DNA from: Centipeda periodontii DSM 2778
Lineage (GTDB): Bacteria > Bacillota > Negativicutes > Selenomonadales > Selenomonadaceae
DNA: 43,959 nt
Assembly: GCF_000213975.1 (NCBI RefSeq)
Contig: NZ_GL892076.1
Coordinates: 1,767,507-1,811,465 of the forward strand
Reading direction: 5' to 3'
A model generated the notes under the pieces. That model searched no databases. It was not told where the DNA came from and worked only from the letters and a program-made list of their open reading frames with translations. The translations under genes and the position numbers were made by a program. The stretch's first letter is position 1; every line of letters begins with the position of its first letter. This document shows, one piece after another, positions 704-43,631 of this stretch.

Positions 704-2275
704 TCATCCCTCAATTGCAGTCTCAATCCCACCCTTGAAAACAACAACTACCGCGCCATCCTCTTTGACCACGATGTGATCAAGCAGCCCGCCCCATAGC
801 TCCTCATCGAATGCAACCTGCTCCCCGTTGATACCACATACCACTTGAATCATGCCCTCTAGGATATTTCTCTTACTCTCCCTCTCGGCAATTTGCTTGT
901 CTAGCTTCTCCAAAGCTCCCTGCTTTTCCAGATAGAGAGCGCGAATCTCATTCTCCTGTTTCAGATACGTCGTCTGATCCTGTGCCACGCGTGCATTCTC
1001 GCGAATCAGTTTTTCAAGCCGTTCTGTCAAAAGAGTGAGTTCTTGCTCTACTCTACCGTGTTCCTCGACAAGCTCCCCTGTTTGGCAAACGCTATCAATC
1101 AGAGCGCGAAGTTCTGCAATCACGTTCTCTTTGACTTCCATCAAGGAGTTCAGTGCTTTCACGAAAATCTGTTTGATTTCCTCCTCCGTCAAGTGCCTCG
1201 TACTGCACGGCTTGCCCTTGTGGGCATATTTCTTGTTGCAGCGGTAGATCACCCTGCGGTACTTGTCCGTGGAGTGCCATACCTTCGCACCGTAGTAACC
1301 GCCGCAGCAGCCGCATTTGATTTTGTTCGCGAAGATACTCACACCACTGTGCTTGCCGTTCTGCTCTCTGCGTTTTATCTCCAATTGCACAAAGTCGAAT
1401 AAGTCTGGCGGGATAATCGCCTCGTGGTGCTCTTCCACATAGTACTGTGGAATCTCGCCCGTGTTCTTCCGTCGCGTCTTATCGAGGAAGTCTGCCGTAT
1501 ACTCTTTCTGGATCAGCGCATCACCGCGATACTTCTCATTCGTGAGGATGGAGCGCACCGTGGAAATGTACCACTTGTCCTTTCCCGACGGGGATTTGAT
1601 GCAACGCGTCTCCAGTTCCTTAGTGATGGCATAGAAGGATCGCCCGCCAAGGAAGAGTTTGTAGATGAGCCTTACGATTTTCGCCTGTTCTTCGTTGATT
1701 TCGAAGTCCTTGTCATAGCCGAGAAAGGCACTGTAGCCCACACTGGTTTTGCCCTCGGCGAACTGCTTCCGCTTGCCCCATGTGGTGTTCTCCGAGATGC
1801 TGCGGCTTTCCTCCTGAGCTAGGCTGGACATAATCGTTATAAGGAGTTCTCCGCGCGTGTCGAACGTCCAAATGTTCTCTTTCTCAAAATAGATCTCTAC
1901 ACCGTTTTCCTTGAGTTTGCGGACGTTCTGCAGAGAATCCACAGTGTTTCTCGCAAAGCGGCTGACCGACTTTGTAATGATGAGGTCGATCTTGCCGGCA
2001 AGGGCATCCTCGATCATTTGGTTGAAGCCGTCACGCTTCTTTGTGTTGGTTCCACTGATCCCTTCGTCCGAATACATGCCGACGAAATCCCAGTCAGCGC
2101 GGCTTTCGATGTAGTTCTTGTAATGCGCCATCTGCATTTCATAACTGGAAGCCTGTTCTTCATGGTCGGTCGAAACTCTGGCGTACCCTGCCGTCCTGCG
2201 CCGTCTTGGTTCTGCCGTAACCTCCGACCGAAAGATTTTAGGGCTTGCAGGAATGACTCTCACTGTCTTTGCCAT
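704..2275 (-). CDS. Large serine recombinase (site-specific integrase family), second of a pair
   Basis: This 523-residue protein has the resolvase fold at its N-terminus: AGYARVSTD carries the nucleophile Ser at about residue 35. Further catalytic-domain motifs are YSDEGISGT, KSVSRFARNT and LAQEESRS. Next come the Recombinase domain (about 170-290), a zinc beta-ribbon (KCGCCGGYYG with paired Cys near 320-360) and a long C-terminal coiled coil (about 385-480). The ATG at 2275 follows GAAGGAGG and overlaps the end of the upstream recombinase by 16 bp, so the two are translationally coupled. Large serine recombinases insert and excise prophages and conjugative elements; the position at the phage end fits. 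Which of the two does which job cannot be told from sequence. Confidence 0.93.
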   Translation of the reverse strand: MAKTVRVIPASPKIFRSEVTAEPRRRRTAGYARVSTDHEEQASSYEMQMAHYKNYIESRADWDFVGMYSDEGISGTNTKKRDGFNQMIEDALAGKIDLIITKSVSRFARNTVDSLQNVRKLKENGVEIYFEKENIWTFDTRGELLITIMSSLAQEESRSISENTTWGKRKQFAEGKTSVGYSAFLGYDKDFEINEEQAKIVRLIYKLFLGGRSFYAITKELETRCIKSPSGKDKWYISTVRSILTNEKYRGDALIQKEYTADFLDKTRRKNTGEIPQYYVEEHHEAIIPPDLFDFVQLEIKRREQNGKHSGVSIFANKIKCGCCGGYYGAKVWHSTDKYRRVIYRCNKKYAHKGKPCSTRHLTEEEIKQIFVKALNSLMEVKENVIAELRALIDSVCQTGELVEEHGRVEQELTLLTERLEKLIRENARVAQDQTTYLKQENEIRALYLEKQGALEKLDKQIAERESKRNILEGMIQVVCGINGEQVAFDEELWGGLLDHIVVKEDGAVVVVFKGGIETAIEG

Positions 2276-3753
2276 CGGTATGCGCCTCCTTCTTTGAGTT
2301 GAAATATGACCTCATCGTCGGATATGACAATCCGCTTTACGTTCTGTACGATCTTGCCCTCGTAGCCATCGCCGAAAAAGGATTCTGCCGCTTCCTTTAG
2401 TTCGGATTCGGGCAGCCGCTTCAGTCGGCATTTCGTACGCGGCTGACTGCAAGACCACACCTTAGTTCCCTTCGTCCAAGTATCGCGCTCACATTTGCTG
2501 CCGCATGAAGCACAGTACACTTTGTTCGTGAAGGGATTGCTGCCACGCTGCCCGCTGTAGATTCGGGCAGTCTTTTTTATGCGACCATTGGTTAGGTGAA
2601 ACTCTACGCAATCAGCGTGAATCACAATTTTTGAGACTTTGCGTCTGAGTTCTGTGGCATCGAAATTGTTCTTCTCCATGACGGCTCTGACCGCAGCCAC
2701 AAGCTCCTCCTCCTTGATCGGACGACTGTCACAGGATTCTCTGCCTTTCCGCTCTCTTGTGTTGCAGCCCCATCGTCTGTACTTCCCGGCGGTTCTTCTG
2801 CTGAAGCCGCCTCCGCAACATCCACATTTCACCACTCCGGAAAACGGCATCAGCACAGGATTCCGATTGCTAGACTGCGCGGCTCTCCGTTTCCGTATCT
2901 CCTGTGCCTTGTCGAAATCTACCTTTGACACGAGTTGCTCGAACATCCCCTCCACCAGATACATGGGAAGTTCTCCTTTATTCCGCTTGCGGATATGCCC
3001 CTCACTGATGTAGTTCTTCTGCAGCGCCATCGTCCCCGTGTAGGAGATGTTAGAGAGGATATCCTTTACCGTGGTCTGCTCGATGGGTCTCCCCTGCCGT
3101 CCTGTGATTCCACGTCCCGCAAGTGTCTTGGCGATAGCGTATGCGGATTCCCCGGTAAGGTATCTCCGGAAGATTTCCTTTACGATCTCACTCTCGGCAG
3201 GGATAATACGGAACATCTCTCCGTCCCATGTGTAGCCGTAAGGCGCTTTGTGTCCGTTCGGAATCCCCTCGGCGAATCGTCGCCGCACACCCCACCGAAT
3301 GTTGTCACCGATGCTCCGACTCTCCTCTTGGGCGAAGGATGCGAGCAGCGTCAAGAGGAGTTCTCCGTCCTCGGATGTGGAATCAATGTTCTCGCGTTCG
3401 AAGCGGACGGCAATCCCCTTCTCTTTCAAGCAACGGACGGTATGAAGGCAATCCACGGTATCTCTGGCAAAACGGCTGATGCTTTTGACAAGCACCAAGT
3501 CGATCTTCCCGGCATTGCAGTCGGCGATCAGCCGCTTGAACTCCGTCCGATGCGTGGTGCTTGTGCCTGTGATTCCCTCGTCCGCATACACGCCTGCGTA
3601 TTCCCATGCGGGATTATTCTGGATGCGATTGCTGTAGTAACTGACCTGCGCCGCAAGGGAGTGGTGAAGCGTATCCACAGAGACGCGGGCGTAGGCAGCC
3701 ACACGCAGCTTTTTCTGCAATATAGGGCTTGGTTGGACTCTTCGTATCTTCAT
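2260..3753 (-). CDS. Large serine recombinase, first of a pair
   Basis: A 497-residue recombinase. I chose the ATG at 3753 (MKIRRVQPSPI) because AAAGGAGG lies just upstream; a longer open frame exists but lacks a ribosome binding site. The catalytic motif AAYARVSVD has its Ser at about residue 25. YADEGITGT, KSISRFARDT and FAQEESRS follow, then the Recombinase domain and zinc ribbons (CGCCGGGF near 310-350 and a second CASCGSKC pair near 420). It lacks the long C-terminal coiled coil of its partner, so the two are paralogous but not duplicates. Coupled recombinase pairs of this kind are known from Firmicute prophages. It is part of the operon that starts with the SHOCT-like gene. Confidence 0.93.
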   Translation of the reverse strand: MKIRRVQPSPILQKKLRVAAYARVSVDTLHHSLAAQVSYYSNRIQNNPAWEYAGVYADEGITGTSTTHRTEFKRLIADCNAGKIDLVLVKSISRFARDTVDCLHTVRCLKEKGIAVRFERENIDSTSEDGELLLTLLASFAQEESRSIGDNIRWGVRRRFAEGIPNGHKAPYGYTWDGEMFRIIPAESEIVKEIFRRYLTGESAYAIAKTLAGRGITGRQGRPIEQTTVKDILSNISYTGTMALQKNYISEGHIRKRNKGELPMYLVEGMFEQLVSKVDFDKAQEIRKRRAAQSSNRNPVLMPFSGVVKCGCCGGGFSRRTAGKYRRWGCNTRERKGRESCDSRPIKEEELVAAVRAVMEKNNFDATELRRKVSKIVIHADCVEFHLTNGRIKKTARIYSGQRGSNPFTNKVYCASCGSKCERDTWTKGTKVWSCSQPRTKCRLKRLPESELKEAAESFFGDGYEGKIVQNVKRIVISDDEVIFQLKEGGAYRWQRQ

Positions 3754-3787
3754 GGTGATTCCTCCTTTCCAGTCCCATATTCCCGTA

Positions 3788-3973
3788 CTATCCGCACGAT
3801 AGCAAGTCAATATCTGAAAATAGAAGTCCGATGACGGGACGATATTTCTCGCGCATTTTTGCTTCAAACGCAAGATATTCGTCCTCTGACAAAAGCCCGC
3901 TCTGCAGCATTTTCCATGAAGTTCGCATCACCATCTGATACGTCATTTCCCGAAGTCCTTCTTCCTTGCTCAT
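3788..3973 (-). CDS. SHOCT-domain-like small protein of the recombinase operon
   Basis: A 61-residue protein starting MSKEEGLREMTYQMVM. The ATG at 3973 follows AAGGGAGATGTTGAA. The sequence KMLQSGLLSEDEYLAFEAKM resembles the short SHOCT helical hairpin (a hydrophobic helix, a G-x-[IL]-[ST]-x-E-E-[FY] turn and a second helix). Small SHOCT proteins often sit directly upstream of serine recombinases in Firmicute prophages; a regulatory or directionality role is possible but unproven. It is the first gene after the promoter-like element at 3997-4025 and lies 34 bp before the recombinase pair. A longer in-frame start exists upstream but would run through the promoter element. Confidence 0.72.
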   Translation of the reverse strand: MSKEEGLREMTYQMVMRTSWKMLQSGLLSEDEYLAFEAKMREKYRPVIGLLFSDIDLLSCG

Positions 3974-27900: not shown

Positions 27901-28578
27901 TTACCGAAACACTTCCTGCAGCACATCCACATGATAGGTATTCACCATGCCATATTTGGCATCGTACTCCTTGCCGATGTGGTAGCCCTGCTTTCTGGAC
28001 ATTGCCGAGGCTTTGCGTCCGAGTCTTGCGGCGACATCCCGACCAACGCCACGAACTCCCGTGAGGTTTGCATAGCCGATGATGGTGTAGTGGTGCTCAT
28101 CGATGGTCATCTGCTTGGACTCCACATCGAGAAGCCGTTCATCCACCTTGTCGATACGGGCATTTGCCGCCTTGATTTCCTTCGCCTGTTCCACCATTCG
28201 CTGTGCGCTGAACAGCAGAAATTCCTCGGGTGTCATGTTCCTTATGGGGTTGAAATAGCTTTCTTCCAGCTCATCGAAAACATCCCACGCCCGCTCAGTT
28301 CCGAGCATTTTGCTGTGACGCGCCGCCCCTTGTTTCGTCCAAAGAATCAGAGACGGTGCGCGACTCCCGACAACTGACTCGATATTTTCGAGTGAGTCCT
28401 TGAAAGCCTTGAGATCAGCACCTTCAAGTTTGAAGTAATGCTTCCCCTCAACGAATCGCGCCCTGTTGTTCTTAAAATTCTGCTGGATATGAATTGCCCT
28501 GCATCCATACGCCTCGGCAAGCTGCTCCGTGGTCATGACACGGATGCTGTTGTGTTCCAATACCGTAAGTTCATTCAT
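27901..28578 (-). CDS. Phage antirepressor, ORF6N plus ORF6C domains
   Basis: A 225-residue protein, MNELTVLEHNSIRVMTTEQL, starting at the ATG at 28578. Residues 5-85 are ORF6N (AEAYGCRAIHIQQNFKNNRA, then FVEGKHYFKLEGADLKAFKD). The C-terminal half is ORF6C (YTIIGYANLTGVRGVGRDVA, then YHIGKEYDAKYGMVNTYHVD). ORF6N/ORF6C antirepressors counteract the lysogenic repressor in Firmicute and lambdoid phages. It sits between VRR-NUC and the helicase, inside the early operon, so it would be expressed on induction. Confidence 0.88.
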   Translation of the reverse strand: MNELTVLEHNSIRVMTTEQLAEAYGCRAIHIQQNFKNNRARFVEGKHYFKLEGADLKAFKDSLENIESVVGSRAPSLILWTKQGAARHSKMLGTERAWDVFDELEESYFNPIRNMTPEEFLLFSAQRMVEQAKEIKAANARIDKVDERLLDVESKQMTIDEHHYTIIGYANLTGVRGVGRDVAARLGRKASAMSRKQGYHIGKEYDAKYGMVNTYHVDVLQEVFR

Positions 28579-28852
28579 GGTCGATTTCCTCCAATACGCT
28601 GTCAATTTGATTTATCTCGTCAATCACATACACCTTGAATCCAAGCCGCCGAAGCAGTCTGTGCCGTACCAGTTGAAGTGGTCTCGGCTTTCTGCCCGGT
28701 GCTTTCAGTTCCACAAAACCCATTCTGCCGCCGGGCAAAAGCACCAGTCGATCGGGCATTCCATCGAATCCCGGCGAGGTAAACTTTGGTGCGATGCCGC
28801 CCATCGCTCTGGTTCTTGCTGCAAGTTCCTTCTCAATGTCTTTTTCCCGCAT
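28571..28852 (-). CDS. VRR-NUC domain nuclease
   Basis: A 93-residue protein, MREKDIEKELAARTRAMGGI, with ATG at 28852 behind AGGAGAACAGG. An alternative upstream ATG lies at 28879. The VRR-NUC core is visible: KFTSPGFDGMPDRLVLLPGG followed by RMGFVELKAPGRKP with the catalytic D...ExK, and LQLVRHRLLRRLGFKVYVID. Stand-alone VRR-NUC proteins are PD-(D/E)XK structure-specific nucleases found beside SNF2 helicases in phages, probably acting together on replication or recombination intermediates. Confidence 0.9.
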   Translation of the reverse strand: MREKDIEKELAARTRAMGGIAPKFTSPGFDGMPDRLVLLPGGRMGFVELKAPGRKPRPLQLVRHRLLRRLGFKVYVIDEINQIDSVLEEIDHE

Positions 28853-35625: not shown

Positions 35626-36750
35626 TCAACTTTCCTTAAAATCTTCTGCTGCAGTATTCATCACAGGCCGCTTGTCGCTCATGGGAGCGAGGGTTGGTTT
35701 CCCCTGCGGTTTTACGATGAAGCCTCCGAGCAGTTCCTCAAACTTATTTTTTCCGAGCAGACTGGTCATTGCCGTAATCCCGAGCAGTTTCTGTTCATAC
35801 GGCTCGTAGCCCGCTTCTTTGACGGTATTGGCGACCGCCGCCTCATCGGTGTATTTCCGATTCGAGCGACCTTCCACCAGTTTCCAGTCCGTCCACTGTT
35901 TTCCTTGGATTGCCCGCTGCAGGGCGTACTCCTTGATGTCACTGACCCATGCGGCGAGCGTGTCGGCTTTTGCAAGCACCGCCTCCACCTCTGCGTCCTC
36001 CAGTGTCGGCGGCATCTCGAAATCATACCGAGCAAGTTCCAGATTGTATTCCGCCCGCTTACGGCAGGTCGCCTTGATTTTGCAGAACTGGCAGTGCGCC
36101 CCTGCACAGAACTCGCCTTCTCCCGCGTGTGCCAGCTTTGCCGCAGGTACAAGCGTGTCTGCCGCCCATGCCAGAAGGTCGACTTTCGAGATGCTGAACT
36201 CCGAGATGTTGGCGAGACGAGGCTGGAAGATCACCATCCGCACCTCTTCGATGTCGTACAGACCGTCGAACATCTGGATGCATCCGAGCGCGTAGCACAT
36301 CATCTGCGGATTGTGGTCGGCACTGACCTCGATGCCTTTGCCGTGTTTGTAATCCACGATGCAGACGGTCTTACCCGAAATGATAAGCGTATCGGCTGTA
36401 CCGAAGCCATCCGGCACGAACGCCGAGAAATCGACGCGCTGCTCCACCGACACCATCGTGTCCTTGCTCTCGTCACGGAACTGACCGACCAGTTCCATCA
36501 CAAACTGGCAGTACGCCTCAGCGCACTCTTCCATCTCAGTGTCATAGGAAGCGAGGTTCTTGGTCGGATCGCGTACCCGCTCCCCCAGAGCCTTGCAAAG
36601 TTTGTACTCGCAGAGCATATGTGCGTCCGTACCTTGTGCGGCATACTCGCTCGGCGTGTCGGATTTCTCCGCATTGAGCCGTGCCGACGGCGGACAGGCA
36701 ATCCATCGTGCGGCAGAGGATGCGGAGAGAACGGCATGCTTACGTGCCAA
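35626..36750 (-). CDS. DUF2800 family Cas4-like nuclease
   Basis: A 374-residue protein, TTG start at 36750 behind GGAGG. The opening KHAVLSASSAARWIACPPSA and QGTDAHMLCEYKLCKALGE are DUF2800 features. The PD-(D/E)XK core is GFGTADTLIISGKTVCIVDY followed by KHGKG. A four-cysteine cluster in FCAGAHCQFCKIKATCRKR resembles the iron-sulphur cluster of Cas4/AddB-type exonucleases. It probably processes DNA ends in phage recombination together with the DUF2815 protein encoded 12 bp downstream. It overlaps the upstream small gene by 11 bp. Confidence 0.9.
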   Translation of the reverse strand: MARKHAVLSASSAARWIACPPSARLNAEKSDTPSEYAAQGTDAHMLCEYKLCKALGERVRDPTKNLASYDTEMEECAEAYCQFVMELVGQFRDESKDTMVSVEQRVDFSAFVPDGFGTADTLIISGKTVCIVDYKHGKGIEVSADHNPQMMCYALGCIQMFDGLYDIEEVRMVIFQPRLANISEFSISKVDLLAWAADTLVPAAKLAHAGEGEFCAGAHCQFCKIKATCRKRAEYNLELARYDFEMPPTLEDAEVEAVLAKADTLAAWVSDIKEYALQRAIQGKQWTDWKLVEGRSNRKYTDEAAVANTVKEAGYEPYEQKLLGITAMTSLLGKNKFEELLGGFIVKPQGKPTLAPMSDKRPVMNTAAEDFKES

Positions 36751-37030
36751 TGCGCTCAGCCTCCTTCAAGAGTGCCGCATACTGCTCCGGTGCAATGTCG
36801 CTGAGTTTGTTTGCGCCGAACTTTGCGATCAGCGACTTGACGGCGGCACTGTGTCCTTCGACAGAGAGTTTCGCAAGTACGGCGCGTACCTCCTCAAGGG
36901 TCGGTGCTTCTGTCTTCTCCGTTGGCAACGGTTCCTCTCCTTCGGAACTCTGCACGAATTCCTCCAAGACATTAACCAGTCGGTGAAGAACGCCGATAAG
37001 CTCGGCTATTGCTTCATTTTCCTCCCGCAT
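36740..37030 (-). CDS. Small conserved phage protein (annotated elsewhere as rRNA biogenesis protein rrp5)
   Basis: A 96-residue acidic protein, MREENEAIAELIGVLHRLVN, with ATG at 37030 behind AAAGGAAGTGATCTCC. It has an N-terminal coiled coil, a Glu/Pro linker (about 30-45) and a C-terminal conserved block APTLEEVRAVLAKLSVEGHS, KSLIAKFGANKLSDIAPEQY. Databases label this family rrp5 by misassignment; it has no similarity to the eukaryotic rRNA protein that I can see. It often precedes DUF2800 in Firmicute phages. It is the first gene behind promoter-like element B. Confidence 0.75.
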   Translation of the reverse strand: MREENEAIAELIGVLHRLVNVLEEFVQSSEGEEPLPTEKTEAPTLEEVRAVLAKLSVEGHSAAVKSLIAKFGANKLSDIAPEQYAALLKEAERIGT

Positions 37031-37082
37031 GGAGATCACTTCCTTTCGATTGACTGCGGGGATTTTCACCTTCCTATAAAGA

Positions 37083-37111
37083 AGAGGACACCGCCGTATG
37101 TTTTGGTCACC
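37083..37111 (-). promoter_or_regulatory. GGTGACC-N15-GTCC element, copy B (recombination/polymerase operon)
   Basis: Minus strand: GGTGACCAAAAC, nine bases, then TGTCCTCTT. It lies between the stop of the sigma-like gene and the ATG at 37030, about 50 bp before that ATG. Spacing and both blocks are identical in design to copies A, C and D. It would drive the rrp5-like, DUF2800, DUF2815 and polymerase genes. Confidence 0.6.
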
Positions 37112-37116
37112 GATTT

Positions 37117-37773
37117 TTACATAAAATCTTTGAGCTGTGCTTGAAGCCCGGGCATGAACTTATTCATACGCTTGCGGATGCTTTCCTTAGATTTGAAGCC
37201 AACGGCGGTGGCAATCGCACGCTCTGACTCTCCCGCCGCCTTGCGGACGAGAATTTCATGGTCGATGGGATCGAGTTCACCGAGAGCCTCGTACAATTTG
37301 CGATTGCGCTCTCTGCAACTGACGGTCTCGGTGACATCCTCTTGAACGGGAAGCGCGAGATCGTTGACTTCCACCGCACGCTCCAAGGAGATTGTCCGAT
37401 ACACGGGATGTGAGCAGCCATCACAGCTGCGATTGGCGCAGCAGGGTTTTCCTTCATAGATACAGTGCTGCCCACGCTTTTCCCGCTTATCCTCCCGCCA
37501 GATCGGTCGCATGACAGCAGAGTATTGCTCGGCATCGACAGGTGCATAAATTGCCCGCTCCGACGCCTTGAGGAACTTTTCTCCGGCAGCCTTTCGCCGG
37601 ACGAGTTCGTCCATGCCCGTATCCCGAAATCTTCCATTTTCGTGGATCTGAATCGGGGCGGGGACATACACGCCCAGCTTCTTACTGAGCTGAAAAAGAT
37701 GTCCCTGCTGTCGGAGTGCCTTGACCTCCTGCGCGGAGTAGTCTTTGATGATACCGTTGAGCTGGATTTTCAT
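37117..37773 (-). CDS. Sigma-factor-like phage regulator with C-terminal helix-turn-helix
   Basis: A 218-residue protein, MKIQLNGIIKDYSAQEVKAL, with ATG at 37773 behind AAAGGAACGC. Residues 80-130 carry a Cys-rich segment (QHCIYEGKPCCANRSCDGCS, then HPVYRTISLE) that may bind zinc. The C-terminal 70 residues match a sigma region 4-like domain: LYEALGELDPIDHEILVRKA, then AGESERAIATAVGFKSKESI and RKRMNKFM. Similar proteins in Firmicute phages are annotated as sigma-70 family or sigma-like. It is the first early gene after the lysogeny region. The four GGTGACC-N15-GTCC elements, one upstream of this gene, are candidate targets. Whether it binds core RNA polymerase is unproven. Confidence 0.72.
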   Translation of the reverse strand: MKIQLNGIIKDYSAQEVKALRQQGHLFQLSKKLGVYVPAPIQIHENGRFRDTGMDELVRRKAAGEKFLKASERAIYAPVDAEQYSAVMRPIWREDKREKRGQHCIYEGKPCCANRSCDGCSHPVYRTISLERAVEVNDLALPVQEDVTETVSCRERNRKLYEALGELDPIDHEILVRKAAGESERAIATAVGFKSKESIRKRMNKFMPGLQAQLKDFM

Positions 37774-38175: not shown

Positions 38176-38222
38176 AAAAAGGCCGGATGACGATAAAGCT
38201 CTCGCTTTACCATCATCCGGCC
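38176..38222 (-). terminator. Strong rho-independent terminator after the repressor operon
   Basis: On the minus strand GGCCGGATGA...TCATCCGGCC forms a 10-bp stem extended by TAAAG/CTTTA pairs around a short loop (38181-38222), followed by TTTTTGTG. It lies 49 bp after the stop of the zinc-ribbon gene and ends the lysogeny transcript before the early region. Confidence 0.9.
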
Positions 38223-38270
38223 ATTCGGTAGCTCATAGCGGCTCCATTGCTCGGTATGTTGGTGTTATGT

Positions 38271-38471
38271 TCAGACTACCCGTCGCCTCGATAATGTACG
38301 TTGTCCTGAATAGTTGAGTTTCACGATATTATGACAGTTGGGGCACTTGAGGGCCAAATTCACATTACCATTGGCATCGATGTCTGCTGCTCTTTTCCCA
38401 CAAACGGGACATTTGAGCCGTTCCATTGCCTCGCTCTCTGATACTTGAATTTTACTGCCTTTTTGAAGCAC
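38271..38471 (-). CDS. Com-like zinc-ribbon protein of the repressor operon
   Basis: A 66-residue basic protein, GTG start at 38471 seven bases after AAAGGAG. RLKCPVCGKRAADIDANGNV, then LALKCPNCHNIVKLNYSG holds two CPxC pairs, the layout of small phage zinc ribbons such as the Com translational regulator of Mu-like phages. The basic C-terminal tail (LSRRRVV) could bind RNA or DNA. It is encoded 17 bp after the repressor gene and ends before a strong terminator, so it is expressed in the lysogen. The Com analogy is based on pattern only. Confidence 0.72.
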   Translation of the reverse strand: MLQKGSKIQVSESEAMERLKCPVCGKRAADIDANGNVNLALKCPNCHNIVKLNYSGQRTLSRRRVV

Positions 38472-38488
38472 ACTACCACTCCTTTTAC

Positions 38489-39466
38489 TTAAAATGGAAT
38501 CTCGTCAATATCCACTAAATTGTTCACGTCATCATCTAAATCCGAAGGAAATGGAGCAGAAAAAAATTTTTCTGTACTCCCTCCATCTTGACGTGGGAAG
38601 ACAAATTCATTGGTTACCTTTTCTTCCTTTAAATCCACAAGAAGTAACGAAACATAGCCTTGAAATTTCTGCTCACCAAAGTCCTCTAAAATGTCTTCAT
38701 AAGCCTCTGAATTATCAACGACATAAGATATTCTCTGTGGTACTTCATCGGATTTGAAGTAAGTAAGTGCTGCATAACGACGCGTAAAGTTTTCATAGAA
38801 GCGCCGCCCATTTTCAAATTTTCTTCGTTGCTTAACTATTTCATCACTATCAGCATCATCTGTATTTACCCCAAAGCGACGAATAATACGCTCAGAGGAT
38901 GACGTCTGCAAAAACTCAAATCCCCATTGCCCATTGCCCCCAATGATTTCATTTCTATACAAAAATTGTAGAGAAATCACCCTTGTTTTTGAAACTCTGA
39001 CACGATGTAGAGGCGAAAAAATAGTATCAGGAGCTCTTCGCATCAGCTCCTTCATGACACTTCTTGATGCTGTCTGTTTGCGTATAAGCATGTCTTCAAA
39101 TTGTTCAATTTTATTAGGGTCATGTTCCAAGACTTTATGAGCCATGCTCGTAAGTTCTGTAATTGCACCAGTACATTTTTCGGCAAACAGCCGCACCTCC
39201 TCTGCTGAAGCAAAACCGTTTGCATCCATAAGCATTTCAAGCGTGATTCCACTTGTGCGATCTCTATGCTCAAAGATCGAGCGAATAACAGTCTCGGTAC
39301 TGGCACCTCCAAGCTTTTTATTTACTATGCGTGAAAATGTAGATGGGTTTACACCGCATTCCTCTGCAAATTGCTTCATCGTCCGCCCCGGTCCCTTAGC
39401 AGCCTCGAGATACTTGGACATTCGCTCCTTATCCACAGGCTTGACACGGGTGTATTCTTCTTGCAT
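38489..39466 (-). CDS. XRE-family phage repressor with an unrecognised C-terminal domain
   Basis: A 325-residue protein, MQEEYTRVKPVDKERMSKYL, behind ATAGGAGGTGCAAAATC. The N-terminal region contains a helix-turn-helix: MKQFAEECGVNPSTFSRIVN, then KKLGGASTETVIRSIFEH. No LexA-type protease or ImmA/IrrE motif is visible. The remaining 220 residues (for example VISLQFLYRNEIIGGNGQWG, YVSLLLVDLKEEKVTNEFVF) resemble a sensor or effector domain unknown to me. The gene is transcribed from a consensus promoter overlapped by an inverted-repeat operator and is the likely lysogenic repressor. The mechanism of induction cannot be told. Confidence 0.78.
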   Translation of the reverse strand: MQEEYTRVKPVDKERMSKYLEAAKGPGRTMKQFAEECGVNPSTFSRIVNKKLGGASTETVIRSIFEHRDRTSGITLEMLMDANGFASAEEVRLFAEKCTGAITELTSMAHKVLEHDPNKIEQFEDMLIRKQTASRSVMKELMRRAPDTIFSPLHRVRVSKTRVISLQFLYRNEIIGGNGQWGFEFLQTSSSERIIRRFGVNTDDADSDEIVKQRRKFENGRRFYENFTRRYAALTYFKSDEVPQRISYVVDNSEAYEDILEDFGEQKFQGYVSLLLVDLKEEKVTNEFVFPRQDGGSTEKFFSAPFPSDLDDDVNNLVDIDEIPF

Positions 39467-39516
39467 GATTTTGCACCTCCTATGGTATTTCTGACCTGTG
39501 TGATTGATATATCAAC

Positions 39517-39545
39517 ATTATATTGCACAAACAAGCAAATTTCAA
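39517..39545 (-). promoter_or_regulatory. Sigma-70-type promoter of the repressor gene
   Basis: On the minus strand TTGAAA (39540-39545), 17 bp, TATAAT (39517-39522). Spacing and -10 are consensus. It points toward the repressor start at 39466, leaving a leader of about 45 bases with an AGGAGG site. It lies within the operator at 39523-39559. Confidence 0.85.
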
Positions 39546-39559
39546 GCAATTTTGTGCAA
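39523..39559. promoter_or_regulatory. Operator: inverted repeat over the repressor promoter
   Basis: TTGCACAAA (39523-39531) and TTTGTGCAA (39551-39559) are perfect inverse arms. Between them CAAGCAA occurs twice as a direct repeat. The region covers the -35 box and spacer of the repressor promoter, the usual place of an autoregulating phage operator. The arms may bind the XRE repressor; the middle repeats may be second sites. Confidence 0.7.
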
Positions 39560-39748
39560 TTTTTTCAAAAAATGATGATGACTACCATATCTCTGTTTCC
39601 CACCTGTCTTTATCATTTTTTGACATTTAAAGTCCTTCTTAGAGCTCTCAGTATGGATATTGTATATTGTAAAGTTTTTCAATCTGCTTTTAACGCAAAA
39701 TAATGTCCTTGGACATAGCTACTTTCTTAATAGGGCGAGGATTTATGG

Positions 39749-39754
39749 TATAAT
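39749..39754 (+). promoter_or_regulatory. Extended -10 promoter of the rightward accessory gene
   Basis: ATGGTATAAT contains a consensus -10 (TATAAT) with an upstream TGG, in an AT-rich stretch, 150 bp before the ATG at 39905. No good -35 box is seen at the right distance, so the extended -10 probably suffices. It leaves a leader that can fold (39776-39846). Confidence 0.6.
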
Positions 39755-39904: not shown

Positions 39905-41257
39905 ATGTCCGAAACTCAGAATGTAGAATATAAAGAGTCTTGGCGGGACGAGTATCTGAAATGGCTCTGTGGTTTTGCCAATGCACAGGGCGGCACGATG
40001 TACATCGGAGTGAATGACTCCGGAAATATTGTCGGTGTAAAGAACATCCAAAGACTGCTGGAGGATATTCCGAATAAAATCCAATCCGGTCTTGGAATTG
40101 TTGCGGATGTCAACAAACACACAAAAGATGGTGTGGAATATCTCGAAATCAAAGTAGAGCCTAGCACTTTCCCTATCAGCTATCATGGAGAATTCCATTA
40201 TCGCAGTGGAGCTACGAAGCAGCAACTGACAGGAATTGCACTATCGCAGTTCATTATGCGAAAGACAGGCGTTCGTTGGGAGGATGTAACGGTCGAGGAC
40301 ATTACAGTAGATGATCTCGACGAGGAGAGCTTCAAAATCTTCCGTAGAGAAGCCCTAAGAAGCAAACGAATGGCTCAGGAGGATCTTGATCTTTCTAACG
40401 CAGAGCTTTTAAGTAAGTTGCATCTGATGTCCAACGGCAAACTAAAAAGATCAGCGGTGTTGCTCTTTTACCACGATCCAAGCGTTATACAAAATGGTAG
40501 TTATATAAAAATTGCTAAGTTCGGAGATGGAGCGGATCTGCAATATCATGATGATCTTGAAAATTCGTTGATAAAGAATGCAGATCAAGTAATCGACCTG
40601 ATTTATCTGAAGTATCTGAAAGCTAACGTGTCATATATACATGATCGTCGGGTGGAAACATACCCTTATGCAAGAGCTGCCATCCGTGAGGCAGTATATA
40701 ACGCGATTGCCCACACCTGTTATATGTTTGGGACTCCCGTTCAGATTCGCATTGAGAATGAGTCGTTTATCATAAGCAATCAGTGCATTCTTCCAGATGG
40801 ATGGACGGTTGAGACCCTGATGGAGCCTCATGATTCCATCCCCTACAATCCAGATATTGCAAACGTATTCTACCGTGCTGGATACATTGAACATTGGGGA
40901 CGCGGTATAGAAAAAATCTGTGAAGCCTGTAAGGAGCTGGGGGCAGACCTTCCATTTTATGAACTACGAGGAAATGGACTTCGAGTACATTTCAAGGCAC
41001 TCAAGAGTGCACTTGTTGCTCATCCTAAATCCCCAAACCGACATGATGTCGGTTTAGATGTCGGTTTGGATGTCGGTATAGCGGGTAGGATTCTGGAGTT
41101 GATCATAGATAATCCAACAGTAACAATGGCTGAAATGGCAGAAAGGCTAGGTGTTACAAAAAGAACAGTTGAACGTGAAGTAAAACAGCTTCGTGAGACT
41201 GGTCGGATAGAGCGCGTCGGCAGTAAACGATTTGGACACTGGAAAATCAACGATTAA
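39905..41257 (+). CDS. AlbA_2/Schlafen-type ATP-binding protein with winged helix
   Basis: A 450-residue protein, MSETQNVEYKESWRDEYLKW, behind TTTGGAGGAAATAACG. Residues 5-130 form the AlbA_2 (Schlafen) domain: E-x-K-E-S, KWLCGFANAQGGTMYIGVND, GVKNIQRLLEDIPNKI. Residues 260-375 are an HATPase_c_4 domain (PYARAAIREAVYNAIAHTCY, VFYRAGYIEHWGRGIEKICE). A tandem DVGLDVGLDVG linker (about 379-390) leads to a winged helix (TVTMAEMAERLGVTKRTVER). Such proteins are encoded by many mobile elements as regulators or possible defence factors. It is one of two rightward genes beside the right attachment site and lies outside the lytic operons. Confidence 0.85.
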   Translation: MSETQNVEYKESWRDEYLKWLCGFANAQGGTMYIGVNDSGNIVGVKNIQRLLEDIPNKIQSGLGIVADVNKHTKDGVEYLEIKVEPSTFPISYHGEFHYRSGATKQQLTGIALSQFIMRKTGVRWEDVTVEDITVDDLDEESFKIFRREALRSKRMAQEDLDLSNAELLSKLHLMSNGKLKRSAVLLFYHDPSVIQNGSYIKIAKFGDGADLQYHDDLENSLIKNADQVIDLIYLKYLKANVSYIHDRRVETYPYARAAIREAVYNAIAHTCYMFGTPVQIRIENESFIISNQCILPDGWTVETLMEPHDSIPYNPDIANVFYRAGYIEHWGRGIEKICEACKELGADLPFYELRGNGLRVHFKALKSALVAHPKSPNRHDVGLDVGLDVGIAGRILELIIDNPTVTMAEMAERLGVTKRTVEREVKQLRETGRIERVGSKRFGHWKIND

Positions 41258-41263
41258 ATATTC

Positions 41264-41303
41264 TAGGGTCGAGGCATAAGAAACTCCTATGTTCTCGACC
41301 CTA
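41264..41303 (+). terminator. Hairpin after the AlbA_2-type gene
   Basis: TAGGGTCGAG and CTCGACCCTA pair over 10 bp with an additional inner CATA/TATG, seven bases after the stop codon. There is no T tract, so it may be a factor-dependent terminator or an RNA-stabilising structure. Its right arm is part of a 25-base sequence repeated at 42464-42488. Confidence 0.5.
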
Positions 41304-41383
41304 CTCAAGAAAGTTTGGTTAATTGCTATTCAACAGCAGAATTTGAGATCCCATTTTGGCACCTCAAGAGGAGATAAAGTAAT

Positions 41384-42289
41384 ATGAAAGAAATTCAGCC
41401 TGTGTCCATCTCACCGACCACGGACACTCCAAATATCAGCCGACTTATTTACACCATACGCAATCAACAGGTAATGCTTGCCAGCGACCTTGCTATGCTC
41501 TACCAAGTGGAGACACGAGTTCTGAATCAGGCTGTGAAGCGGAATCAGAAAAGATTTCCCGAAAGATACTGTTTCCAGTTAACCAAAGAGGAAGCGGAAA
41601 ACTTGACATCACAAATTGTGATGTCAAGTTCCTCACATGGCGGGCGGCGAATCCCTCCTTACGCCTTTACCGAACAGGGCATAGCTATGTTGTCAGCAGT
41701 TCTCCGCAGCGATGTTGCTATTGATGTCAGCATCCGTATCATGGATGCTTTCGTAGAGATGCGGCATTTTATCTCGGGCAACGCTCACCTTTTCGAGCGC
41801 ATAGAGCGGGTAGAATTGAAGCAACTCACCTATCAAAAAGAAACCGATGAAAAACTCGAGCAAGTCTTTGACTTTATCCATGCCCATACAGAGTCCAGTC
41901 AAAAGATATTCTTCAACGGACAAATTTACGATGCCTTCAGCTTGTTGGCGAGCTTGATTCAAAAGGCTGCCAAGAACATCATTCTCATTGATGGCTATGT
42001 GGATATAGGGACGCTCAATTTGCTGGCAAAAAAACCAGCTAATGTTTCCGTGGAAATCCACACATTTAGCAATACGAGATTGACGGCAGCAGATGTTGCG
42101 ACCTTCAACCGTCAATATCCAACGCTTACCATCAATCACACCAATGCCTTTCACGATCGTTTCCTTATTCTTGACCACCAAGAGGCATATCACATCGGCG
42201 CATCACTCAAAGATGCCGGAAAGAAATGTTTTGCCATCACACTTTTGCAAGATGAGGCACTCCTACAGGAGCTTCTGGCACATTTGTGA
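41384..42289 (+). CDS. ORF6N-domain protein with PLD-like C-terminal domain
   Basis: A 301-residue protein, MKEIQPVSISPTTDTPNISR, behind AGAGGAGATAAAG. Residues 18-115 are ORF6N (YTIRNQQVMLASDLAMLYQV, VLNQAVKRNQKRFPERYCFQ, RIPPYAFTEQGIAMLSAVLR). A linker helix follows (ERVELKQLTYQKETDEKLEQ). Residues 175-295 look like a phospholipase-D-superfamily fold with HDRFLILD, an HxKxxxxD variant with Arg for Lys, and YHIGASLKDAGKKCFAI. Proteins of this architecture are known from mobile elements and are usually called ORF6N proteins; the role of the PLD part, nuclease or not, is open. It ends before a strong terminator. Confidence 0.85.
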   Translation: MKEIQPVSISPTTDTPNISRLIYTIRNQQVMLASDLAMLYQVETRVLNQAVKRNQKRFPERYCFQLTKEEAENLTSQIVMSSSSHGGRRIPPYAFTEQGIAMLSAVLRSDVAIDVSIRIMDAFVEMRHFISGNAHLFERIERVELKQLTYQKETDEKLEQVFDFIHAHTESSQKIFFNGQIYDAFSLLASLIQKAAKNIILIDGYVDIGTLNLLAKKPANVSVEIHTFSNTRLTAADVATFNRQYPTLTINHTNAFHDRFLILDHQEAYHIGASLKDAGKKCFAITLLQDEALLQELLAHL

Positions 42290-42356
42290 AAAGACATTCA
42301 CAGCCCGGTGAGGCGGCAATACAACAAAAACCACCGAAACCATGAAGATAAACCGA

Positions 42357-42389
42357 ACGGCGTGCAGCTAAAAGCTACGCGCCGTTTTT
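42357..42389 (+). terminator. Rho-independent terminator after the ORF6N-PLD gene
   Basis: ACGGCGTGCAGCT-AAA-AGCTACGCGCCGT forms a 13-bp stem with one mismatch and a G-T pair, followed by TTTTTG. It lies 67 bp after the stop at 42289 and ends rightward transcription before the attachment site. Confidence 0.88.
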
Positions 42390-42450
42390 GAGTGTGAATT
42401 CTATGGGTAAATTGTTCCCCATAAATCATCCTATAATTTCCCCAAGAAAT

Positions 42451-42498
42451 AAAAATCTGTAAAGGAACTTCTATGTACTCGCCCCTACAGTTTCCTTT
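42451..42498 (-). terminator. Probable terminator downstream of truncated comM
   Basis: On the minus strand AAAGGAAACT...AGTTCCTTT forms a stem of 9-10 bp with one bulge around a 20-base loop, followed four bases later by TTTTTATTT. It lies 36 bp beyond the new stop codon of the truncated comM. The loop contains the second copy of the direct repeat found at 41280-41304. Confidence 0.5.
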
Positions 42499-42533
42499 AG
42501 TTCCCTCCGCAATTCGTATAATTCGATGGAGTA

Positions 42534-43631
42534 TCAAGTTGCCTCTCGTTCATCATTACATTGTATCGTTATCGACGTTACGTCGTTCATTGCGGCTACC
42601 AAAATAATACTAGAGGGAAACGTCAGTGTTGCGTTCGCACGCGACACCGTAATCTGGCGATCCTCAATCGGCTCACGCAGCACCTCAAGCGTCTTCTTGC
42701 TGAACTCCGGCAACTCGTCAAGAAAGAGCACGCCGTGATGCGCAAGCGTCACCTCGCCCGGACGCGGGATGCTGCCGCCGCCGATCATCGCCACCGTCGA
42801 GGACGTATGATGCGGACTGCGAAATGGACGAGTCGTCACAAGTCCCGTATCCTTGCCGAGCAGCCCCGAGATACTGTAAATCTTCGTGATCTCGATGGCT
42901 TCTTCCTTCGTCAGCTCCGGCAGGATCGAACTCATGCGGCGTGCCAGCATCGTCTTGCCCGAGCCAGGTACACCGACCATCAGGACATTATGACCTCCCG
43001 CCGCTGCAATCTCAAGCGCACGTTTCGCCTGATACTGCCCCTGTACGTCCGCAAAGTCATCGGTGAAGGCAGCATCTTTTTGTGTTTCGATATGATTCGG
43101 TATGGCAGGAGTCAGCACCTCTGTGCCAGTCAAATGACGCACAAGCTGCGCCAGATTCTCGACCGCATAGACCTTTAGTCCGTCAATCAGGAGTGCCTCG
43201 TCTGCATTGGACGGTGCAACGTAAAACTCTGTGAGACCATGTTCCCGCGCCGTGATTGCCATCGGGAGAATACCGCTGATCGGACGGCAGTTTCCATCGA
43301 GAGAGAGTTCTGCCGAGAACAGTGTACTCTGCACCGCCGTCTCCGGAACCATACCGTAGGATGCAAGGAGACCAACCGCAATCGGCAGATCAAGCCCCGA
43401 GCTGTCCTTTCGGACATCGGCAGGTGCGAGATTCACCGTCACCCGCTCCTGCCGCAGCTGAATGCCGGAGTTGCGAATCGCCGTCCGTACCCGCTCCTTC
43501 GACTCCTTCACCGACGTATCGGGAAGCCCCACCAGCTCAAACCCTGGCAGCCCCGGCGACACATCCACCTCAACGTCGATAATCCGTCCATCAATCCCGA
43601 GGGTCGTCGCACCATAGGTCTTTGCAAACAA
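42534..43631 (-). CDS. comM: ComM/YifB-type Mg-chelatase-like ATPase, truncated by the prophage
   Basis: A 365-residue frame, TTG start at 43631 behind GGAGGGAAGGCCG. Residues 1-170 are the ChlI/Lon-like domain ([60 protein letters not shown]). The AAA+ part follows ([20 protein letters not shown] Walker [21 protein letters not shown] Walker B). Normal ComM is about 500-510 residues and continues AAMNPCPCG; here it reads ILVAAMN and then [16 protein letters not shown], encoded by prophage DNA, and stops. The lost part contains the rest of the AAA+ module and the C-terminal domain. ComM is a branch-migration helicase that extends heteroduplex in natural transformation, so the lysogen should be impaired in that. 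Confidence 0.92.
42565..42605. other. Prophage right attachment region (attR) inside comM
   Basis: ComM text is normal up to the codons for AAMN (minus strand, ending at 42585) and foreign from the next codon. The junction contains a 13-bp perfect palindrome CGACGT-T-ACGTCG (42573-42585) next to it. Serine integrases use palindromic attachment sites about 40-50 bp long with a central dinucleotide crossover. The matching attL and the comM 3' end are not in the window, being displaced beyond the left IS30 element. Confidence 0.65.

Follow-up and report, generated by a model that had tools for sequence, protein, structure and literature searches.

What do the two rightward genes that adjoin the comM junction of this prophage encode, and do they belong together? 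The stretch of DNA that was analysed (43,959 nt, hereafter the window) has at this place two intact open reading frames (ORFs) on the + strand, gene 1 at 39905-41257 (450 amino acids, aa) and gene 2 at 41384-42289 (301 aa). A preliminary description had presented them as an accessory pair beside the attachment site, a Schlafen-type AlbA_2 protein followed by a fusion of ORF6N to a PLD-like fold, and the ORF coordinates, Pfam matches and predicted model confirm both the genes and their domains. The reading we favour, on sequence evidence and with its chances evenly balanced in our judgement, is that gene 2 may encode a DNA-binding autoregulator of the PLD superfamily that acts through an operator carried in its own gene, both genes being independent cargo cassettes of a slot next to comM. 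It builds on direct observations, namely the palindromes with their covarying arms and their rarity outside these loci in the searched genomes, the conserved motifs, the exchange of ORF6N and PLD parts and the cargo slot.

The central observation is an inverted repeat, AACTTGACATCACAA-A-TTGTGATGTCAAGTT, with perfect arms of 15 bp at 41600-41630 (codons 73-83 of gene 2), which lies within the ORF6N-coding part and is the sole one that the repeat search shows for 41000-42700. All 110 unique full-length homologues of gene 2 (110/110) have a palindrome at the same aligned codon, with 9-12 of 12 pairs formed (mean 11.05); among the 1,766 centres scanned in the alignment the runner-up averages 6.17. 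In 19 AlbA_2 sequences, taken as a control family, the scan gives no comparable peak (maximum 6.53). When codons were resampled synonymously according to the codon use of the gene concerned, the mean for 89 unique sites fell from 10.96 to 5.10 of 12, and for 88 of these 89 at most 5% of the resamples reached the observed pairing score. The loop that the palindrome encodes (residues 76-87) has a predicted local distance difference test (pLDDT) value below 50 in the predicted model. The usual peptide at the palindrome core is LRSQIVTS or similar, yet the core DNA is translated in a different frame in Segatella and in an L195 fragment of ORF6N, as LVANCDR or LVTNCDR, so that the proteins differ and the symmetry of the DNA stays. 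That the palindrome is kept despite changing letters suggests a built-in control site.

The two arms also covary, 10 of the 12 pairs having changes on both sides (142 compensatory cells; 0/500 shuffles). The test used 75 of 78 unique 25-nt sites, L213, L214 and L222 being excluded for expected ambiguity of alignment. The covariation score is 0.426 against 0.140 (standard deviation, sd, 0.011) in 500 shuffles, a contrast inflated by relatedness, which the shuffles leave uncorrected, and against 0.058 to 0.096 in slid versions, which keep relatedness. Covarying arms can arise without any reader, since template-switch correction of quasi-palindromes yields them, and a mutation bias of this type instead of selection might thus keep the palindrome. 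However, the bias alone would not choose one position in 110/110 genes or place sister sites in leaders, and the control family lacks the peak; we consider this explanation highly improbable. Another possibility is that the palindrome works as a hairpin in the mRNA, recognised by the protein, by ribosomes or by an RNase, for example in autogenous control with a cleavage like that of Zucchini or NucT. The internal site does fold strongly as RNA (-19.1 kcal/mol, z -7.6) and leader dyads lie near the gene start. But among the mismatched pairs A.C was seen 34 times and G.T 16 times, and as G.T is no commoner than A.C, G.U wobble on the coding strand is not favoured and a site in DNA is likelier than an mRNA hairpin. 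The leader dyad of the window, moreover, folds as RNA no better than shuffles (z -0.29), and we regard the RNA explanation as unlikely.

If the palindrome is a binding site, its relatives outside the coding part are of interest. In the window a dyad, TTGAGATCCCATTTTGGCACCTCAA, with 9/12 pairs occupies 41343-41367, directly upstream of the ribosome-binding site of gene 2. A whole-genome pattern search allowing at most 2 mismatches gave matches in 16 of the 17 genomes with gene 2 and in none of the 3 without it. This genome has two such matches, both at gene 2 (41343-41367 and 41603-41627). In other genomes a few lie on a different contig or at a distance of about 8-10 kb, and the reversed palindrome pattern had no matches in the same search. 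Across 88 loci an upstream dyad was found in 28 (that of L195 within an ORF6N remnant), a dyad after the stop codon in 13 and either of the two in 36. The upstream sites are placed 257-352 nt before the internal centre in 28 of 34 cases, and 12 of the 13 inspected sites within 650 nt upstream lie outside ORF6N remnants. Arms of leader sites are closer to the internal site of their own locus than shuffled arms are (0.763 vs 0.663, sd 0.019, 0/5000, with kinship ignored).

Other ORF6N genes were searched for the same arrangement. The second ORF6N gene of this prophage (27901-28605, - strand) carries a palindrome of another sequence at the corresponding place of its code, with weaker statistics (P 0.014), and 9 of its 11 antirepressor relatives score 9 to 11 of 12 in three sequence types, L269 and L271 reaching 7 and 8 of 12 in the stretch scanned. 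For more distant ORF6N genes, 11 of 18 passed the motif filter, two of these 11 being of the type of the second ORF6N gene of this prophage. The palindromes of Legionella (P 0.20) and Haliovirga (P 0.11) are short and fall below significance.

The protein that would read these sites has an ORF6N domain at residues 21-106 (PF10543, 2.9e-35, 120.9 bits vs a cut-off of 27.8), followed by a long helix and a PLD-like fold at residues about 165-301. The latter was recognised from the predicted model and its Foldseek matches, no Pfam model being reported for this part. The model has a mean pLDDT of 78.7 and a predicted template modelling (TM) score (pTM) of 0.43, and its fold matches comprise TrmBL2, PLDs, NucT and Zucchini (E 4e-6 to 3e-3, with modest TM-scores). 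The motif HDRFLILD, pointed out from the letters alone in the preliminary description, is present in the PLD-like part and reads HxRx4D, the canonical K being replaced by R. Gene 2 therefore falls outside the canonical HKD pattern (HxKx4D), and we call it HKD-like and do not file it as an HKD enzyme. HxRx4D and GxSxKD are nearly invariant: among the 107 homologues holding the region, H257, D258 and R259 occur in 107/107 and D264, G272 and K276 in 106/107. Relatives of gene 2 are present in at least 583 of at least 590 candidate stretches from a scan of bacterial and archaeal genomes, and the nearest named one among the matches listed is L146, from an uncultured Veillonellaceae genome (87%). 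In Treponema (L274:1020-6057) the ORF6N-PLD gene is flanked by a DNA methyltransferase/winged helix-turn-helix (wHTH) pair on one side and by a gene for restriction subunit S, with Fic next, on the other. A Parabacteroides plasmid (L283:1504-3237) has three tandem ORF6N genes.

A plainer explanation takes gene 2 for a common phage-type regulator related to antirepressors and gene 1 for a regulator of transcription, without a defence function for either; it is compatible with the operator reading. The ORF6N part of gene 2 has matches among antirepressor PHROGs (best 4.7e-26), the prophage carries another ORF6N gene, and TrmBL2, which heads the fold matches, is a chromatin protein of archaea and not a nuclease. 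Set against this are the near invariance of the catalytic-type motifs, the full-length match to a putative defence profile (PDC-S05 of PADLOC, residues 12-300, 6.6e-129) and the position of the genes in a cargo slot that is rich in defence genes and whose genes differ between elements (see below). We find this explanation somewhat doubtful, though conceivable.

Under the favoured autoregulator reading, the ORF6N domain would bind the palindromic dyads as a dimer, and the sites in the leader and in the ORF6N-coding stretch, which are separated by about 260 bp, would hold the expression of gene 2 low. Release or titration during infection would raise the level of the protein, whose nuclease-like PLD domain may then act on nucleic acid, probably by cleavage; this domain could be an effector or a dimeriser, and the outcome would be phage resistance. 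Several results weigh against this reading. TrmBL2 as top fold match, mentioned above, is one of these. Further pair types in the covariation test are not above the shuffles (21 vs 19.4, with 123/500 reaching the observed value). The likeness between leader arms and internal sites is inflated by related loci, and the arms of downstream sites (16 sites) do not track the internal site (0.688 vs 0.683, p 0.42). Only 28/88 loci pass the upstream-site filter, and the weak leader dyad of the window, with its 9/12 pairs, is among those that fail it. When the window is compared with G003, the leader sites are alike and the internal sites differ. Beyond the main set, support among ORF6N genes is weaker, with P <= 0.01 in 4 of the 11 tested. 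Finally, the neighbours of gene 2 outside the hotspot are diverse and mostly of non-defence type (137, judged by eye from the first 45 residues).

The two genes do not behave as a unit. Among the 250 genomes of the class, relatives of gene 2 occur in 20 and relatives of gene 1 in 100 (E <= 1e-40), and the two lie within 5 kb of each other only here and in G227, among the places listed. Gene 1 adjoins comM without gene 2 in L007 and G010 C30. Gene 2 adjoins comM in G010 C26 and in G012, and the search found no gene 1 in G012. G003 and G013 show the succession ORF6N fragment, gene 2, a C-terminal piece of gene 1 and comM. Homology to the L007 prophage covers gene 1, stops at 41304 and restarts at 42554 beside comM. 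The homology of G012 to the window runs from 41304 to 42459, and L071 is 96.0% identical over the same 41304-42459; the comparison of shared flanks gives the same cassette limits, at -80 and +170 of gene 2. The ORF6N-PLD cassette of leader, gene and terminator thus occupies 41304-42459 on the + strand. A two-gene defence or toxin-antitoxin system was rejected on account of the separate distribution among the places listed, and the term pair in the preliminary description is not supported; judged by this distribution, genes 1 and 2 are independent single-gene cargo cassettes. Upstream of gene 1, the region 38195-39594 is 99.5-100% identical to L007 and 36001-37394 only 72-92%, a pattern that fits, as expected, a recently exchanged module apparently shared with gene 1. 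On the - strand at 38271-39466 it holds a 66-aa gene, in which CxxC pairs can be seen by eye, and one of 325 aa (phrog_1337, DNA binding protein), and both proteins are 100% identical to their L007 counterparts.

Exchange is also visible within gene 2. Compared with the type present in G003, G008, G010 and G013, the protein is 64% identical in the ORF6N part and 96-97% in the PLD part; compared with L146 the values are 97% and 84%. Among 5,995 pairs 44 are recombinant-like, the best breakpoint lying 100-300 nt 3' of the palindrome in 33/44 and within 30 nt of it in none, the homologue pairs of these identity, shared-flank and breakpoint comparisons not being mutually independent. With breakpoints 3' of the palindrome, the palindrome and the ORF6N part travel together, and an exchange of cassettes or domains at the palindromes themselves was rejected, as the breakpoints are elsewhere. 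Gene 2 of G003, G008, G010 and G013 is directly preceded by a displaced piece of ORF6N (residues 1-115 or 14-115, in part broken), which differs from the ORF6N part of the gene itself, as if the domain had been replaced.

Close gene-2 pairs (87-97% identical) with different flanks were found as well (L166/L169, 897 nt; L162/L225, 961 nt), and as such pairs share little beyond the gene and its nearest neighbours are diverse, gene 2 apparently moves on its own. The palindromes might serve mobility, the PLD-like domain nicking or breaking DNA at sites of its own type in a homing-like or REP/RAYT-like manner, which would explain a gene that moves alone with sites before, inside and after it. Besides the close pairs and the 137 varied neighbours, this is favoured by the external palindromes in 84 loci, where 21/42 lie within 260 nt of the gene and all 21 have a CAA.TTG core. 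Yet no domain-swap breakpoint falls within 30 nt of the palindrome, most of them (33/44) being 100-300 nt 3' of it, the cassette of the window begins about 40 nt before the leader dyad and not at it, and the sites are scarce elsewhere in the searched genomes. Mobility as the function of the palindromes is rather unlikely in our view.

Gene 1 has its own set of domains. Pfam assigns SLFN_AlbA_2 (PF04326) to residues 3-108 (1.4e-16, 61.5 bits vs a cut-off of 25.3), HATPase_c_4 (PF13749) to residues 276-363 (3.8e-15, over its cut-off) and a winged helix to the C-terminal part (HTH_11, residues 396-439, 1.2e-8; HTH_11 and HTH_24 both over their cut-offs). The protein matches phrog_12156 across its whole length (1.2e-137). 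A RecG-type helicase, as the name of PHROG 12156 would have it, was rejected, the sole RecG-related family being the C-terminal HATPase_c_4, among 25/33 Pfam families. The predicted model (mean pLDDT 82.6) matches the structure 3lmm first and then Schlafen proteins. In a diverse alignment of 19 sequences, E3 is kept in 18/19 and K10 in 19/19, E8 is E in 13 and D in 6, and D38 is D in 17/19 and N in 2/19. The catalytic carboxylates of rat SLFN13 are given as E205, E210 and D248 in the part of the source available (PMC5862951), and the spacing of E3 and E8 equals that of E205 and E210, a match of sequence spacing only and not of superposed structures. Gene 1 is most likely a Schlafen-type metal-dependent RNase effector, which its HATPase and winged-helix parts probably restrain. 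Gene 1 also contains a palindrome, CCGACATGATGTCGG, together with tandem GATGTCGGTTT-like copies (window 41030-41060), in the linker before the winged helix; the repeats encode the peptide DVGLDVGLDVG, and a similar palindrome occurs in the G001 copy.

The signals around the two genes are as follows. A promoter-like site for gene 1 lies at 39727-39754 on the + strand (TTAATA, 16 nt, TATAAT, with TG before the second hexamer), a consensus match only, and the region has 11 such sites vs 6.3 in shuffles (sd 3.0), a mild enrichment. A terminator had been proposed from the letters, and there is in fact a hairpin after each gene on the + strand, at 41264-41303 for gene 1 (-21.7 kcal/mol, z -5.4) and at 42355-42387 for gene 2 (-20.4 kcal/mol, z -3.6, with a T-run on its 3' side), neither of which a simple terminator scan listed. 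The gene-1 hairpin as a genome-wide repeat was rejected, its exact pattern occurring once in the genome.

The 5' part of comM (codons 1-349) occupies 42586-43631 on the - strand and is cut at the attachment site, the junction being at 42586-42593, which bears out the placing of accessory genes beside an attachment site. The attR that had been proposed there does not imply that comM is lost: some 7 kb to the left of the window, at G000 C1:1759258-1760745, this genome has an entire comM with an open frame of 513 aa. All 14 genomes of the genus gave a comM-like match (14/14), with a full-length copy in 11, and 8 of these 11 also have a copy cut near codon 349. At the opposite end of the element, two adjacent large serine recombinases lie on the - strand at 704-3873 (704-2275 and 2260-3873), and two different ones stand side by side in related elements too. 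In this genome (G000 C1:1756000-1905000, with the one intact comM at the left) and in G012 there are tandem units, each made up of a couple of large serine recombinases (broken in some cases), a body and a truncated comM. The simplest reading is that an element would supply the 5' part of comM itself; integration would then regenerate comM, displace the old 5' part and build tandem arrays. The literature search gave no relevant title on comM arrays, few of many titles being covered and preprints lying outside its coverage.

Of 19 right ends examined, 15 have the junction pattern and 13 of these 15 carry a conserved element-side arm, TTGTATCGTTAT.GACGTTAC, which in the window is at 42561-42585 next to the junction. 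The gene slot directly inside this arm varies between elements. We picked 20 slot proteins by eye from nine right ends (one of them without its first 77 residues), and 13/20 match PADLOC at 1e-5 or better, with type III and type II restriction-modification, LmuB, AbiH, PDC-S02, PDC-S06, PDC-S09 and a kinase among the matches; a Pfam scan of 10 of the 20 adds AbiU2, HepT-like and NACHT. A defence-type gene is present at 10 of 13 junctions (the window and L007 excluded, genes 1 and 2 uncounted), and in 4 of these 10 it is the same HepT/nucleotidyltransferase pair, one scanned and three assigned by likeness. The junctions G001_C14a, G007_a and G007_b have no confirmed defence-type gene; the 371-aa protein of G001_C14a has no PADLOC match, and its AbiH-like label is unconfirmed. 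As the picks have no matched control set, the excess of defence genes carries no P value. The neighbourhoods of gene 2 at large were considered as a general defence island and rejected, consisting by eye mostly of unrelated genes, so the inference of defence rests on the comM slot and PADLOC. With these and the Schlafen-HATPase-wHTH layout of gene 1, the defence role first suggested is plausible for each gene as swappable phage-defence cargo, but not for the two as a pair.

A wider reading may be put forward tentatively, with less confidence than that for gene 2 itself. ORF6N genes might encode their own target site inside the DNA-binding domain, so that site and reader would evolve jointly and form an exchangeable specificity module for different effectors. 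We would, equally tentatively, name a PLD-like nuclease as the effector here and an antirepressor elsewhere, with the target readable from the gene. No ORF6N protein is known to us to have an assigned DNA target. None of the literature titles found links ORF6N genes to a coding palindrome, which is weak evidence of novelty as mostly titles only were covered and preprints were not; where ORF6N and palindrome do occur together, the word refers to CRISPR in the portion of the text available. If the coding palindrome is the target, that of each ORF6N-PLD protein can be read from its own gene, and the whole of this common family would be testable at once by simple binding assays. The PDC-S05 defence candidate would in that case gain a concrete regulatory mechanism. 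The comM slot is in addition a compact place to seek further anti-phage genes in the genus.

Known systems resemble parts of this locus. In lac O2 and gal OI, operators within coding sequence are paired with one near the promoter, and the proposed sites of gene 2 have the same arrangement of an intragenic operator with a promoter-near partner. In contrast to these, the gene-2 site lies within the code for the DNA-binding domain of its own presumed reader and is kept while its letters change. TrmBL2/TrmB, NucT and Zucchini have their fold in common with the gene-2 model, but the TM-scores are modest and gene 2 has HxR instead of HxK and an N-terminal ORF6N domain. Its full-length profile, PDC-S05, is a putative defence candidate that PADLOC lists on guilt-by-embedding. 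In the accessible parts of the papers concerned (PMC12988326, PMC13356809), counts and a tree are reported for candidates of this type, most of which are without experimental validation, with no mention of a palindrome and no report of phage protection for the candidate. For gene 1 the nearest solved structure to the model is DIP2311 (PDB 3lmm; Foldseek 4.3e-23), at 17% identity and with an entry title that states no function. A close system is the bacterial Schlafen RNase with a minimal histidine-kinase ATPase and a wHTH, whose three-domain layout is that of gene 1; as far as the available part of the source goes, these Schlafen-HATPase-wHTH proteins are BREX-linked effectors found in BREX and related loci of at least 1017 taxa (PMC12839542), whereas gene 1, known here from its sequence, is a lone prophage gene with no BREX gene noticed adjacent to it.

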